A DNA stretch of 23,158 nt. Origin: a virus. The notes beneath the pieces are model-generated. The model ran no database searches and was not told the DNA's origin. It was given only the letters and a program-made list of their open reading frames with translations. The stretch spans positions 1-23,158 of the IMG/VR virus record IMGVR_UViG_3300025141_000796, one strand, 5' to 3'. Below, in pieces: positions 18,760 through 23,158 of the stretch. The first letter of the stretch is position 1. Each line of letters begins with the position of its first letter. Both the position numbers and the translations under genes were made by a program.

Positions 18760-18982
18760 TCCTTTGGCGCACGTCTTCCTCTTCTTCAACAGAAAGAACC
18801 GTGAATGGTTCGCATACTTCAGTCATACCTCCAAGGAGGCATTTACCGCACATTACGGTACCTCCGTTTACGTCGTAAGGTTTCCTGTCGGGATAATCTT
18901 CGTTTACCTCTATTACTCGATAGAGTCTTAAGTCAACATACTCGTAGATTTCTTCTTCCCCACATATTTTGCATTTATTCAT
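18743..18982 (-). CDS. Zinc-finger small protein (79 aa)
   Basis: Start ATG 18982 overlaps the upstream gene end by eight bases (ATGAATAA) and is preceded by GGAGGCGAGTGA. Two cysteine pairs, C-K-I-C (4-7) followed by G-E-E, and C-G-K-C (45-48) followed by L-L-G-G, would bind one zinc. The intervening segment is Tyr/Asp/Glu-rich and the C-terminus is very acidic then basic (E-E-E-E-D-V-R-Q-R-K). Shares the M-x-x-C-x-x-C-G-E-E start with the adjacent 43-residue protein. Function unknown; replication-operon context. Confidence 0.65.
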   Translation of the reverse strand: MNKCKICGEEEIYEYVDLRLYRVIEVNEDYPDRKPYDVNGGTVMCGKCLLGGMTEVCEPFTVLSVEEEEDVRQRKEASE

Positions 18983-18995
18983 TCACTCGCCTCCT
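18971..18995 (-). repeat. Direct repeat at gene start, copy B
   Basis: Counterpart of 18735-18759, spanning the Shine-Dalgarno, ATG and first codons of the 79-residue zinc-finger gene. The copies differ only at two third-codon or nearby positions within the first codons after the ATG. Confidence 0.7.
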
Positions 18996-19265
18996 ATGTG
19001 CTTTGACAATCTCATCTAATACTCTCAGCAATTCCTCTGTACTTTGGAGGAGGTTGCGGTTTAGTGTGACGTACATGGGGCCTTCTTGCCCCACTTCTGT
19101 CTCAGGGTCAAATTCATACAGGGTCTTCTGTATCGCTATTGAGTAATCCTTGTCTTGTCCTAGATGGGCAAAGGATACGATGATGGGGCGACCCATGATA
19201 TGCTTCATCAGCGAATCACATACGAACGCAATTGTACGAGATGTGATTTCTTTCCGTGGCGTCAT
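18975..19265 (-). CDS. Hypothetical protein (96 aa)
   Basis: ATG 19265 overlaps the preceding stop as ATGA, with GGAGGCG upstream. The 96 residues have a mixed alpha/beta look: an N-terminal strand-helix (I-A-F-V-C-D-S-L-M-K-H), a strand R-P-I-I-V-S-F-A-H-L, a strand P-M-Y-V-T-L-N and a C-terminal amphipathic helix ending K-A-H-R-R-R. No catalytic motif, zinc site or membrane segment is evident, and I do not recognise the family. It is translated in tandem with zinc-finger genes between the RecB-like nuclease and the primase, so an accessory role in replication is possible but unproven. Confidence 0.55.
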   Translation of the reverse strand: MTPRKEITSRTIAFVCDSLMKHIMGRPIIVSFAHLGQDKDYSIAIQKTLYEFDPETEVGQEGPMYVTLNRNLLQSTEELLRVLDEIVKAHRRRVNE

Positions 19266-19501
19266 TCATCTACGCCTCCCTCTTCATACCAATAATCAGA
19301 AAGGTGGCGCACATCCTCACCCGCTAATTGTGCGGCACAAATGATACAACAACCCCCTGTACTTCCTCGGCTTTCTGGGTCAGATTGGCAGGGGCGTATA
19401 TCGTGTTGATTCAACCATCGTTCGCCCTTTGTTGCATGAGGCCAGCCCATAATACAATTACGAACCGTATAGGCATACGAATCAGAATATACAATCTTCA
19501 T
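19262..19501 (-). CDS. Small Cys-rich hypothetical protein (79 aa)
   Basis: The start at ATG 19501 is chosen because it forms an ATGA overlap with the RecB-like nuclease stop and has GGGAGGC nine bases upstream; the longer frame to 19516 lacks a better signal. The 79 residues include an N-terminal strand (M-K-I-V-Y-S-D-S-Y-A-Y) and a cluster C-Q-S-D ... G-G-C-C-I-I-C (about 38-55) that could coordinate zinc. The C-terminus is aromatic and acidic (Y-W-Y-E-E). Pattern H-x-x-x-x-P-C...C-C-x-x-C is not one I can name. Function unknown. Confidence 0.55.
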   Translation of the reverse strand: MKIVYSDSYAYTVRNCIMGWPHATKGERWLNQHDIRPCQSDPESRGSTGGCCIICAAQLAGEDVRHLSDYWYEEGGVDE

Positions 19502-20496
19502 GCTTCTGCCTCCCATGCCTTACGGTATTCCTCGGGGTCATCGCTTCCTTCCCATGCAGGGCAGATGTCCTTGAATGAGCACCAAGCGCATTTACCTTGG
19601 CTCGGAGTAGGTTCAAAGTTGTCTGTCAAGTAAGCCGTGAGCAGAGCATCAACCATGCGTCGAATCTTCTTGGAATAGTCTGTGTTACGACGACCTGTGC
19701 ATGGCTCATACCAAATGCGATTGGTAGATTTCTGCTCGTATCCGTATTTGCTCATTGCTGGTATCTCTATTTGGTCGCCTGATGGATAGACCCATCCCCA
19801 GTGCGTTACGTCTTGGTATTCGTGGTCGCACAACTGAAGCAATTTCTTGTAGAACATCATTTCGGTGCGCATGGACTTGACTTTGAAATCTGAATCGACC
19901 CAATCAGCACCTTTGAGAGTTTTCACCCATTTACCTGTCTTCAACTCCATGAGGGCTACTGAACCTTCAGGTGTGCGGAAGCCTCGGTCAATCATACCTG
20001 CATAGTGCACAGGGATGGTGACAGTCTCACCATTGAACTCAATGTTTTCTTCAGTGAACGCGTGCAATTCCAATTCATTGATGATAGGTAGATACCGTGT
20101 AACTCCATCCCCAAGTAATCGGTCTAGGTCCATCCCTAATCGTGAATCAATAGATGCCTGTTCACCCAATACGTAAGGCTCATCGGGCTCAGGTAGGGCC
20201 TTCTGAAATAGTTCCATTGCCTCATCCCTTTTGTTGGCTTTCAGTAGGTCATACGCCTTCTGAACATAGGGGACGACATTGACATAGAATTCTTCGATTG
20301 CATCGTGAACATTTGTACCCTTTATCATCGGGTCAGTCTGTGGTTCAGGTAACTTGTGTTTGCGCTTGTATTCGTATGACTTTGGGCAGTAATCGAAATC
20401 ACTGGTCAGACTTGACTTGGTGATGCGCAGGTGCTTCTTGTGCCCCGGCTCCCACTGGTATGTGGATTTAGCGTATTGTTTGAAGTCTCTAGCCAT
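19498..20496 (-). CDS. RecB/Cas4-like PD-(D/E)XK nuclease with Fe-S cysteines
   Basis: Start taken at ATG 20496, one base overlapping the previous stop (TGATG) with AGGGGG upstream; a TTG at 20499 is less likely. The 332-residue product has the family layout: C37 in D-Y-C-P-K-S-Y, G-T-N-V-H-D (H64), catalytic G-M-I-D (D170) and M-E-L-K-T-G (E184, K186), M-F-Y-K-K-L-L (Y216), and a C-terminal C-A-W-C-S-F-K-D-I-C cluster (303, 306, 312) that with C37 would hold a 4Fe-4S centre, as in Cas4, AddB and Dna2. These enzymes are ssDNA exonucleases or end processors. No Cas1, Cas2 or CRISPR array is nearby, so a recombination or replication role is favoured over spacer acquisition. Confidence 0.85.
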   Translation of the reverse strand: MARDFKQYAKSTYQWEPGHKKHLRITKSSLTSDFDYCPKSYEYKRKHKLPEPQTDPMIKGTNVHDAIEEFYVNVVPYVQKAYDLLKANKRDEAMELFQKALPEPDEPYVLGEQASIDSRLGMDLDRLLGDGVTRYLPIINELELHAFTEENIEFNGETVTIPVHYAGMIDRGFRTPEGSVALMELKTGKWVKTLKGADWVDSDFKVKSMRTEMMFYKKLLQLCDHEYQDVTHWGWVYPSGDQIEIPAMSKYGYEQKSTNRIWYEPCTGRRNTDYSKKIRRMVDALLTAYLTDNFEPTPSQGKCAWCSFKDICPAWEGSDDPEEYRKAWEAEA

Positions 20497-20732
20497 CAAA
20501 TGTTCCCCCTGTATTTTCGCTTACCGCTCTTCATACCCACACGCTCAGTCGTGTGAACTGGTATCATGTCCGGGTCAAAGTCGGTGAGTTTAGTTTGGGT
20601 CTCCGGTACAAAGATGTTAGGGTCCCATTCATCCAATGTCGTCTGTCGTGTTGTGATACCACCGCATTGGCAGTACTGCTTAGGCTCAGATATTTCTGGC
20701 TTCTTTCTGAATCTGTCGAACCACTTTTTCAT
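20496..20732 (-). CDS. Small protein with two PCNA-binding (PIP-box)-like motifs
   Basis: Start chosen at ATG 20732, which overlaps the preceding stop as ATGA and has GGAGGCG eight bases upstream. The 78 residues begin with a basic helix (M-K-K-W-F-D-R-F-R-K-K), then C-Q-C-G-G (21-25). Two spaced motifs follow: Q30-T-T-L-D-E-W-D37 and Q46-T-K-L-T-D-F-D53. Both fit the first seven positions of the PIP box QxxLxx(F/W), the peptide that docks on the sliding clamp PCNA, with Asp replacing the last aromatic; each is followed by Pro. The C-terminus is basic (K-S-G-K-R-K-Y-R). It lies between the polymerase end of the operon and a nuclease, so a clamp tether or clamp inhibitor is a good hypothesis. 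Not a family I can name. Confidence 0.6.
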   Translation of the reverse strand: MKKWFDRFRKKPEISEPKQYCQCGGITTRQTTLDEWDPNIFVPETQTKLTDFDPDMIPVHTTERVGMKSGKRKYRGNI

Positions 20733-20929
20733 TCCACACGCCTCCATTCCCAAGAATCACCTGCGTCGAAAACACCAAAGACAATTTTACAATCTTTACA
20801 ATGGTGGTAACTTCTGTCGTATTCTGGACGTTCTTTTCTTCGTTCCAATACTCCCCATTTTACGTTCTTTGAATCGCAACCGATACACAAAGGGAACCCG
20901 TCTTCGTTTGTTTTCAGTGTGGTACTCAT
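20729..20929 (-). CDS. Zinc-ribbon small protein (66 aa)
   Basis: ATG 20929 overlaps the previous stop as ATGA, preceded by GGAGGGGAACGA. C-I-G-C (15-18) and C-K-D-C (44-47), separated by a basic stretch (E-R-R-K-E-R), make a classic zinc ribbon resembling those of transcription factors and ribosomal proteins. A C-terminal W-E-W strand follows. Acts in the cytoplasm; nucleic acid or protein binding is expected, exact function unknown. Coupled to the double-PIP small gene downstream. Confidence 0.65.
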   Translation of the reverse strand: MSTTLKTNEDGFPLCIGCDSKNVKWGVLERRKERPEYDRSYHHCKDCKIVFGVFDAGDSWEWRRVE

Positions 20930-21114
20930 TCGTTCCCCTCCAGTTCAATCAGTTTCTGTAAATAGACTGCTAGGTCCATCGCTTCCTCTTGCGCATGGAT
21001 AAGCCACTCCAATCGTGTGAGTGGGGCTGTCTCCATTGTGACGCCATACTTCTCTTTACCAACGGCTGAGCGTTGCTGTATTTTCTTGCATACTTCATCT
21101 TCTATTCTACTCAT
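20926..21114 (-). CDS. MazG-like short helical protein (possible nucleotide pyrophosphohydrolase-related)
   Basis: Start chosen at ATG 21114, five bases after the polymerase stop; a GTG at 21147 inside the polymerase gene is the alternative. The 62 residues contain G-K-E-K-Y-G-V-T-M, then W-L-I-H-A-Q-E-E-A-M-D-L-A-V-Y-L. This matches a widespread short phage family with an E-E-x-x-D helix like that of all-alpha NTP pyrophosphatases (MazG type). If active it would hydrolyse nucleotides to adjust the pool for replication, but it holds only about half of a MazG fold and may need to dimerise. Next to the polymerase, which suits a nucleotide-pool role. The enzymatic claim is tentative. Confidence 0.55.
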   Translation of the reverse strand: MSRIEDEVCKKIQQRSAVGKEKYGVTMETAPLTRLEWLIHAQEEAMDLAVYLQKLIELEGNE

Positions 21115-21118
21115 ATTA

Positions 21119-23158
21119 TCACCAATACCTCTTCGGTCGTGCTGCACCTGCTGCGAAATCTAGATTCCAATTCAGTGCGTTGAATATACTCTTAACCTTA
21201 GACTTGACCAACTTGTCTACCATCGTGTCGTAGTCGAGTGTGTAACCAGTCAAGTCTGCCTCTTCACGATATGCGACGATGTCTGCCTTGGGCTGACCAT
21301 CAGGTACTCCACTGACATACACCCAGTTTACGCTATCTCCCTCACCCATGCGTTCAGACTTACCCTTTGCAATGTGTTCGTTGTAGTAACGTGCGCCCTT
21401 GACGCCCGGTACACCCACGCTAGGGGCATACTGATTGAGTTTCTTTTGGATGCGTGTGGTACCTGCCACCTCTGATATATTGACATCACCTTTGGCAATG
21501 CGCTTGGATAGTGGTCGTACCATATCAATGACTTCATCCTCATCTGCACCTGTGCAAACGGCTGACAGTACATCGTTCTCCAAGTTCTTGGAAATAGGAG
21601 CGAGAGTGCTGATTTTACCAAACCGAGCAGACTTCACCTTGCCCTCATCTTCAGGTGGCCAAGAGCAGATGCCATAGTACAAGTTCTTCCCTGCAACCAA
21701 CCAGTAGGGCATGTATGCCTCAAACTCTACGATGAGCGCGTGCTCTTGATAGCGTCGTTGAATCTCTTCAGTCAGATGCTTAGCGAGTGCAGGCGCTTCG
21801 TCGAATGGCACCTTGACAAAGGCAGAGTCCGTGTGTCCGTACAGAGCCTCGTAGCCCTGTGCCTGTGACTCTTCCATGAGGAATTTGATAGCGCGGCGAC
21901 CACAGGCTGTGATTGCACTAGCGATGTCAAAGTCACACCAACCCCAATGGGCACTCGCCGTTGCACCATACCAACTCGCCATGACACGCTTGACAGCCAG
22001 TTGCATGGTGTTCCATCCCTTCCTCTCAATCTCAGTCTTAGCCTTCTTCATATTCCGCTTGTATTCATCACGATACTCAAATAATTCAGTGATAATACGT
22101 GGGAGTAGTCCCGGCTCACCCTGCTGCCAACAAGTACCGTCAGGTAACTCATGGACATCATCATCATTGGCTCGACTCTTGGATACGCGTGTCTCCCATG
22201 AGAGGTTGTGACTGAGGATGATGCTTGGATACAGGCCCTTGTAATCCACACACGCTACGCCCTGATATCGACCGGGTGTAGGTGGTGGGATGAACGCACC
22301 TTCGTACTCTTGCTTCTCTTGCTGAGAGCGAGTCGGTGCTTTCCAATGTGTGCGCCTCGACAGGAGGCCCCGCGCAAACCGAGTCACGTTGTGACACGAT
22401 GTGAACGAAACGCCTGTGATTCGCTGGAGTGATAAGTAGAAGTTCAGAACGTGATTTTCCTCATCTATTTTCTTGAGAAGTAGTACGTCCTGCATACAGT
22501 ATGCGACGTAGTCATCGAAGCGGTTATACCACCCTGTGAATACGTCCATCTCAAACTTTCCACCATAGCCGAGAGTCTCTGCAATGGTGTTCAATTTGAG
22601 GTTCTTGAGTTGGGGTTGGCCACTGTCTTTCCATACCCGCTCAAAGCCAGTCCCACTTCTCAGCGGGGCCGCTGTGTCGAAGCAAAGGCGACCGCAAATC
22701 GGCTGTGCTGTGTAGTCATATCCTCGGTTCCCTTGAGGTGGTCTAAGCACTCTTCCGAGTGGACTTAGTCTCCTAAACTCAGGGAAACGCCTGACAATGT
22801 GGGGAAGGTCGGCCCACATTATCGCGTGAGCGACAAAGATATCGGGGTTACATTCTTCCAGATATTCAAAGAATGCTTGGTACATAGATTCCTCATCCAT
22901 GTACAAATGTCGCTCGTATGTGAAGTGATGTCGAATCCCATCTTCGTCGGTATTATCGACTTCGATATTTTCTATAGATACCAATCCATTCTGGTCTACT
23001 TCTCCCAAATGTCTGGCTCCATAATTGGCCGCTTCTGACCAACAGAAAACTACATTCCTTTCGTTGTAACTATCTGTGACTGCCATGACGGTTGTGAAAT
23101 CCTTCTTTGGGTCCCATTCAAGGTCAAAGTGCCAAACGCGGGGCTTCCACTCAGGCAT
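21119..23158 (-). CDS. polB: Family B DNA polymerase (N-terminus at window edge)
   Basis: Replicative polymerase; 679 residues visible. The first ATG is the last codon of the window, so it may be complete or 5' partial; Exo I at residue 11 implies an N-terminal domain that is very short or outside. Exonuclease: F-D-L-E (D12, E14), an atypical Exo II H-A-I-M-W-A-D-L-P (D117 kept, usual Asn absent), Exo III Y-C-M-Q-D (Y220, D224). Polymerase: motif A D-Y-K-G-L-Y-P-S-I-I (305-314), motif B K-R-V-M-A-S-W-Y-G (390-398), motif C Y-G-H-T-D-S (440-445) with His in place of the first Asp, then K-N-L-Y (491-494), and a thumb with G-A-R-Y-Y-N-E-H and D-I-V-A-Y. D305 and D444, the key metal ligands, remain. 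First visible gene of the replication operon. Confidence 0.93.
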   Translation of the reverse strand: MPEWKPRVWHFDLEWDPKKDFTTVMAVTDSYNERNVVFCWSEAANYGARHLGEVDQNGLVSIENIEVDNTDEDGIRHHFTYERHLYMDEESMYQAFFEYLEECNPDIFVAHAIMWADLPHIVRRFPEFRRLSPLGRVLRPPQGNRGYDYTAQPICGRLCFDTAAPLRSGTGFERVWKDSGQPQLKNLKLNTIAETLGYGGKFEMDVFTGWYNRFDDYVAYCMQDVLLLKKIDEENHVLNFYLSLQRITGVSFTSCHNVTRFARGLLSRRTHWKAPTRSQQEKQEYEGAFIPPPTPGRYQGVACVDYKGLYPSIILSHNLSWETRVSKSRANDDDVHELPDGTCWQQGEPGLLPRIITELFEYRDEYKRNMKKAKTEIERKGWNTMQLAVKRVMASWYGATASAHWGWCDFDIASAITACGRRAIKFLMEESQAQGYEALYGHTDSAFVKVPFDEAPALAKHLTEEIQRRYQEHALIVEFEAYMPYWLVAGKNLYYGICSWPPEDEGKVKSARFGKISTLAPISKNLENDVLSAVCTGADEDEVIDMVRPLSKRIAKGDVNISEVAGTTRIQKKLNQYAPSVGVPGVKGARYYNEHIAKGKSERMGEGDSVNWVYVSGVPDGQPKADIVAYREEADLTGYTLDYDTMVDKLVKSKVKSIFNALNWNLDFAAGAARPKRYW

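Follow-up and report, generated by a model that had tools for sequence, protein, structure and literature searches.

A tandem PIP-box protein encoded near a PIP-less DNA polymerase in a magrovirus-type genome fragment: a candidate clamp tether in trans

The viral record IMGVR_UViG_3300025141_000796 of IMG/VR, taken from position 1 to 23,158, is a stretch of 23,158 nucleotides (hereafter the window) that we presume to be a fragment of a "magrovirus"-type virus of Poseidoniales, the presumed host likewise belonging to the Poseidoniales. Among its replication genes lies one for a 78-residue protein with two closely spaced motifs that resemble the PCNA-interacting peptide (PIP) box. Here we report that these motifs are conserved, that they recur on several small proteins of related viruses and that the polymerase of a sister lineage ends in such a peptide, and we consider whether the 78-residue protein could act as a clamp tether in trans.

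Results

The target gene and its parts all lie on the minus strand.

20496..20732, (-), tandem-PIP protein of 78 amino acids, stop codon included (20499-20732 without it), from the open reading frame and its translation; ATG at 20732
20700..20732, (-), basic, Trp-containing N-terminus MKKWFDRFRKK; M1 and W4 invariant, role putative
20658..20672, (-), Cys knuckle CQCGG, residues 21-25; CxxCG in most homologues, a possible metal site
20619..20645, (-), PIP box 1, QTTLDEWDP, residues 30-38; core columns kept in homologues
20571..20597, (-), PIP box 2, QTKLTDFDP, residues 46-54; core columns mostly kept in homologues
20499..20552, (-), conserved basic C-terminal tail TTERVGMKSGKRKYRGNI; common to 9 of 16 alignment rows and to further orthologues

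In an ATGA overlap, the start codon of the target shares bases with the stop codon of the gene before it. A preliminary description of this DNA had noted two PIP-like motifs, 16 residues apart from Q to Q, in a small basic protein of 78 amino acids, and the translation agrees: the protein is mildly basic, with 15 K/R against 11 D/E. The positions given there for the motif pair, 20574-20645, are right to within one codon, with 20574 falling one codon short of the last Pro of motif 2. Between the window gene and its counterpart in L004 (loci and contigs are cited by L numbers) there are 16 synonymous and 5 nonsynonymous codon changes, and third positions hold 18 of the 25 base differences; because of this excess we count the target as a real gene under purifying selection. 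The AF2 model of the protein, which is of low confidence (pLDDT 57.5), is disordered and has helical turns only at residues 3-9 and within the two motifs (residues 33-36 in motif 1 and 49-51 in motif 2). Nine residues link the aromatic of motif 1 to the Q of motif 2. A tblastn search among INPHARED phages returned no match to the target.

Conservation is concentrated where a PIP box would require it. An alignment of 16 homologous sequences (A6) has nine invariant columns, M1, W4, P12, C21, C23, G24, Q30, L33 and Q46. Within motif 1 the Q at position 1, the L at position 4 and the aromatic at position 7 (F, W or Y at residue 36) are kept in 16/16 sequences, and within motif 2 the Q and the L or I are kept in 16/16 and the aromatic in 12/16. 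The proposal of the preliminary description was to be abandoned if homologues failed to keep the Q, L and aromatic columns, and the comparison left it standing. Measured against the PIP consensus Qxxhxxaa, both window motifs have the core (Q at position 1, a hydrophobic residue at 4 and an aromatic at 7), and both have Asp in place of the second aromatic at position 8. Across about 40 related proteins, position 8 is G, F, D, A, T, M, L, V or Y. A second aromatic, F or Y, stands at position 8 of PIP box 1 in 13/44 relatives, and two PIP motifs per chain are found in 30 of about 44 related proteins, a tally that includes the probably unrelated L190 and L270.

Scanning IMG/VR for QTTLDE[WF] recovered orthologues that share the C-terminal tail and have the canonical QTTLDEFF...QKRLTDY at the same site; other relatives have the canonical QTTLDEWF. 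Some hits to QTTLDEW or QTTLDEF were discarded as large proteins without a replication link or as out of frame. The FEN1 proteins of the presumed host have C-termini with QTSLFSF, QTSLFSFDG or QPTLFDF, and since these PIPs likewise contain one aromatic, a single aromatic appears to be normal in this lineage. The PolD4 PIP shows that known PIPs may have no second aromatic (PMC10087552), and we treat that residue as a consensus feature of PIPs, not an absolute one. The preliminary description had suggested that the Asp-Pro of both copies marks a special variant of the clamp-binding motif; the canonical orthologues, the free position 8 and the single-aromatic FEN1 of the host lead us to set that suggestion aside. 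Judged by their sequence, the window motifs are conserved PIP boxes, and the gene setting together with the conserved cores upholds the earlier view of them as PIP-type motifs in a replication operon.

The polymerase encoded upstream of the target has no such peptide. It and the other close neighbors of the target are as follows.

21119..23158, (-), Family B DNA polymerase (PolB), 5' end beyond the window; C-terminus ..ARPKRYW without a PIP box
20926..21147, (-), MazG-like protein of 73 amino acids, overlapping the 3' end of PolB; named from the look of its sequence, no Pfam match
20729-20929, (-), protein of 66 amino acids with CxxC..HCxxC spacing, directly upstream of the target and overlapping its start
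19498..20499, (-), PD-(D/E)XK nuclease, directly downstream of the target; the L004 orthologue matches PF12705 (E 1.9e-13)
18975..19265, (-), family-B protein of 96 amino acids (described below), with one PIP-like motif, IQKTLYEFDP, at about 19104-19130

Window-lineage PolBs terminate in PK.YW or a similar sequence, and none of 69 unique sequences has a PIP in its last 25 residues. A sister lineage (L174, L175) has a split PolB and the same gene order as the window lineage. There, the polymerase carries a canonical PIP, Q..[LM][DE][DE]W[WFL], at its very end in 80/80 loci (63/63 unique sequences); these loci were picked as the nearest to two PIP-bearing PolBs, and the count holds for this lineage and does not extend to split PolBs in general. 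A related polymerase thus has as its tail the peptide of the window protein. A strict complementarity between a PIP on PolB and small PIP proteins proved too strong a rule; both co-occur in some viruses, and one clade has neither.

Besides PolB and the PD-(D/E)XK nuclease, the window encodes a primase, an ERCC4-type nuclease, a helicase-like protein, a DnaQ-like exonuclease and a thermosome (names by similarity or the look of the sequence). A matching gene complement has been described from Poseidoniales viruses of the Magrovirales (PMC10768690, PMC12999244). Relatives extend further upstream, with RFC-S, an RPA-like protein, a RadA-like ATPase and a protein of 250-270 amino acids directly before PolB; the Magrovirales replication module (PolB, RFC-S, PCNA, primase) has the same gene set.

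The motif is not tied to one protein. We surveyed 80 PolB-anchored loci related to the window, in which the strict motif Q[TS][TKQS][LIM].[DEA][FWY] was counted 45 times, where shuffles of 1786 unique genes predict 1.0, and is confined to small proteins; tandem loose pairs in short open reading frames number 22 against 4.1 expected. Family A, to which the target belongs, is found in 28/80 loci, in a Cys-knuckle form like that of the window and in a minimal form of 44-67 amino acids that is essentially two PIP boxes and a short tail. Family B, the product of a gene between the nuclease and primase genes, bears the motif in 56/80 loci, with homologues reading QTTLDEFYD, QTTLDEYYD and QTTLDEFFP. 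In the divergent alignment of this family the Q (21/25) and the L (22/25) are among the best-kept columns, and neither the target nor the family-B protein has a match in Pfam or PHROGs. The tail of the MazG-like protein ends in a PIP in L015 and L061. All ten loci with a motif-less family-B gene carry the minimal tandem protein, and 66/80 loci have at least one small PIP-bearing protein, be it the tandem-PIP protein, the protein of about 90 residues or the MazG-like tail.

These small genes keep close company with those for the polymerase or the clamp. Minimal forms start from 3 nucleotides before to 14 nucleotides after the last base of the PolB stop; small PIP genes overlap PolB in L197 and L212 and begin 4 nucleotides after it in L200 and L210, and in L076, L087 and L088 the small PIP gene overlaps or abuts the clamp gene instead. 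L184, outside the 80 loci, has both a family-B homologue with a canonical C-terminal tandem, QARLDEFF...QTTLDEWF, and a tandem open reading frame of 35 amino acids that overlaps the PolB stop. Microproteins of 23-46 amino acids are encoded next to RPA/RFC, in the interval between primase and ERCC4, or some 1 kb away from a DNA ligase gene. The smallest of them, of 23-33 amino acids and mostly with one or two PIP boxes (L174:5895-5996, plus strand; L241:1016-1087, plus strand; L264, 591-662 in reverse-strand count), occur in split-PolB viruses in the gap between primase and ERCC4 (L174) or between RFC-S and RPA (L241, L199, L264, L276).

Relatives of the window virus also encode a candidate clamp, the protein of 250-270 amino acids before PolB, which is found in 75/80 loci. 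It has no match in Pfam or PHROG, and phmmer and profile searches against PDB sequences gave no real hit, so its identity rests on its fold and on profile comparison with hhalign. The AF2 model, built from 45 orthologues (pLDDT 93.5), has the two-domain PCNA fold; Foldseek places archaeal PCNAs as the best matches (E about 6e-12, TM about 0.7), and hhalign aligns its profile with Poseidoniales PCNA (E 3e-5, probability 73%). The virus group thus possesses a clamp of its own, and a viral PCNA has already been annotated in Aoguangviridae (PMC10768690). The viral clamp (L004:6657-7415) has a helix-bearing stretch of 36 residues between its two domains, at residues about 102-137, where the connector loop of cellular PCNA is shorter, and its C-terminus also differs from that of host PCNA. 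A long helix-bearing connector is also known from the PCNA of African swine fever virus (PMC10506467). Conserved columns among the viral clamps include Y44, P102, W128 and D247, which, mapped by secondary structure, would lie near the location of the PIP pocket in PCNA.

Discussion

We lean toward a model in which the 78-residue protein is a small, largely disordered clamp tether that supplies in trans the PIP box that PolB lacks. The strongest reason to think that it ties the viral replisome to the clamp is that the sister-lineage PolB ends in the same peptide. The two QxxLxx(W/F) peptides would dock into the peptide pocket of a PCNA-type clamp, one at a time or on separate rings, and the missing PIP would thereby come from a separate small protein made beside PolB. 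Clamp binding itself is something we infer, and the clamp bound would most likely be the virus's own. The basic, Trp-containing N-terminus, the Cys knuckle and the basic tail would hold PolB, DNA or another part of the replisome, and the presence of two motifs would raise local concentration and rebinding, not span one ring.

Several known systems help to place this protein. PIP proteins of archaea and eukaryotes (FEN1, PolB, RFC-L, p21) carry the Q1-x-x-hydrophobic4-x-x-aromatic7 core in a disordered stretch; the window protein shares the core, in a stretch that is predicted to be disordered. The known PIPs of archaea form the very C-terminal end of larger enzymes (PMC6881253), whereas those of the window are internal, in tandem and on a protein of 78 amino acids, and are without a second aromatic. 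PolD4/p12 of DNA polymerase delta is a small accessory subunit through which a B-family polymerase gains a PIP in trans (PMC6424025, PMC10087552), and its PIP has a single aromatic, as in the window. We see no sequence relation between the two; the viral protein has tandem PIPs, its binding to PolB is putative, and what is seen of a PolD4-like role is gene adjacency and complementarity with the PolB PIP.

Several observations weigh against a tether in trans. The window virus's own clamp gene lies outside the window. Most loci of the window lineage have no family A and carry the motif on family B only. Micro-forms of 23-48 amino acids leave little room for a second binding partner, and some viruses with a PIP-bearing PolB (or a split PolB seen only partly) also encode PIP microproteins. 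Finally, the 14/80 loci without a small PIP-bearing protein form one clade that has neither gene, a PIP-less PolB and no recognizable PIP protein; a tether is therefore not universally needed. A broader proposal, which we advance tentatively and with doubt slightly the heavier, is that Poseidoniales viruses detached the clamp-binding peptide of the polymerase onto free-standing proteins that serve as exchangeable trans tethers or as clamp-occupying competitors, some of them (33-48 amino acids) little more than two PIP boxes.

Such competitors are the essence of the alternative that survives best. The preliminary description had offered a clamp tether or a clamp hijacker; the tether is the best reading, and a clamp blocker stays as the chief rival, one we judge unlikely and retain because PIP boxes make up nearly the whole of the smallest forms. 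Proteins of this kind would be competitive inhibitors that occupy the PIP pockets on host PCNA and drive host FEN1, ligase and polymerase off it, with the virus replicating on its own divergent clamp. Some relatives are almost only PIP boxes (23-48 amino acids), the core recurs in a PIP of the host itself (QTSLFSF), PIP microproteins are present even where PolB carries a PIP, and the viral clamp, very divergent and with an inter-domain helix, might escape. PCNA blockers of peptide or small-protein size are known as well, namely the p21 peptide and TIP, the Thermococcales inhibitor of PCNA (PMC6204406). TIP is a small archaeal PCNA binder that is partly disordered alone, and in this the window protein may resemble it; its PIP is followed by an amphipathic trimer-breaking helix, whereas the window protein has two PIPs and, in the low-confidence AF2 model, no helix after either motif, its loop and tail being non-helical. 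However, a peptide that is also the tail of the sister-lineage PolB should bind the virus's working clamp too, family A has other conserved parts for which a mere blocker would have no use, and the position of the genes beside PolB or the clamp suits replisome assembly.

It is improbable that the motifs merely resemble PIPs and bind a partner other than the clamp, such as a hydrophobic pocket of another replisome protein. The silence of the Pfam and PHROG libraries leaves room for this idea, but relatives have canonical QTTLDEFF and QTTLDEWF, the sister PolB has canonical PIP tails and the clamp gene lies in the same operon of relatives.

The preliminary description had also raised the possibility that the protein bridges two PCNA subunits of one ring, so that both PIPs of one molecule fill two pockets of the same clamp trimer. 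The prevalence of two motifs in one chain speaks for such a bridge, which we nonetheless consider very improbable. The linkers span 4-12 residues among relatives (9 in the window) and, fully stretched, would reach at most about 19-50 Å (38 Å in the window), and the motif spacing varies. A search of the literature yielded no direct figure for how far apart the PIP pockets lie. In the PolD-PCNA complex, which has a different geometry, 70 Å lie between the final ordered DP2 residue and the nearest free pocket, which a linker of 40 residues was judged hardly able to reach (PMC7101311). Pyrococcus DP2 itself has an internal and a C-terminal PIP, two boxes for one clamp whose binding at the pocket was judged mutually exclusive (PMC7101311), although its PIPs lie inside the polymerase and further apart. 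Mutual replacement, rebinding or the joining of separate rings is more plausible for the window protein than the spanning of one ring. Coincidence as the source of both motifs is effectively refuted, since they are conserved, enriched and found again on unrelated proteins and the gene is under purifying selection, even if at least one loose motif Q..[LIM]..[FWY] appears in 4.9% of 200,000 shuffles of the target (at least two appear in 0.08%).

PIP boxes, paired polymerase PIPs (PMC7101311), small PIP subunits (PMC6424025, PMC10087552) and small PCNA inhibitors (TIP, PMC6204406) are already known. We found no mention of small PIP-box proteins in the literature searched, which left out most subscription papers and the original magrovirus paper; against that literature, what appears new is a recurrent virus gene family of stand-alone tandem-PIP mini- and microproteins that is largely complementary to a PIP-less polymerase. 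The PIP box is a common handle on PCNA, normally the tail of a larger enzyme, and here it is a stand-alone and usually tandem gene product. Among abundant marine archaeal viruses, a polymerase without a PIP set against a sister polymerase with one amounts to a natural experiment on processivity in trans. These proteins would be ready-made minimal clamp ligands of 23-78 amino acids, they suggest a likely function for dozens of unannotated small open reading frames, and they raise the question of how a virus with its own clamp handles competition between viral and host clamps.

Other PIP-like sequences were seen in and around these loci. The nuclease C-terminus PQEY[LI]DNY (e.g. L045, L052) fits the loose PIP core in 24/67 unique sequences and is absent from the window's own nuclease; we do not claim it as a PIP. 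RPA-like proteins of nearly all magroviruses (e.g. L004:3862-5160) have a conserved C-terminal G[DNS]T...QF that recalls an SSB tail or a degenerate PIP. We rejected the form [DN]TS[LI].QF as a PIP; it has no Q1, and one clade does not conserve position 4. On other viral contigs, outside the magrovirus group, proteins of 74-75 amino acids (L168:1-228 and L159:1845-2069) end in QTTLDEWGWSQ or QTTLDEWGGA, PIP-like tails with Gly at position 8. In L273 (5815-6243, plus strand), a tandem PIP, QTTLDEFTNSKTRQTRLTEFG, stands at the N-terminus of an open reading frame of 142 amino acids and is followed by lipoprotein-like sequence, possibly a fused frame.
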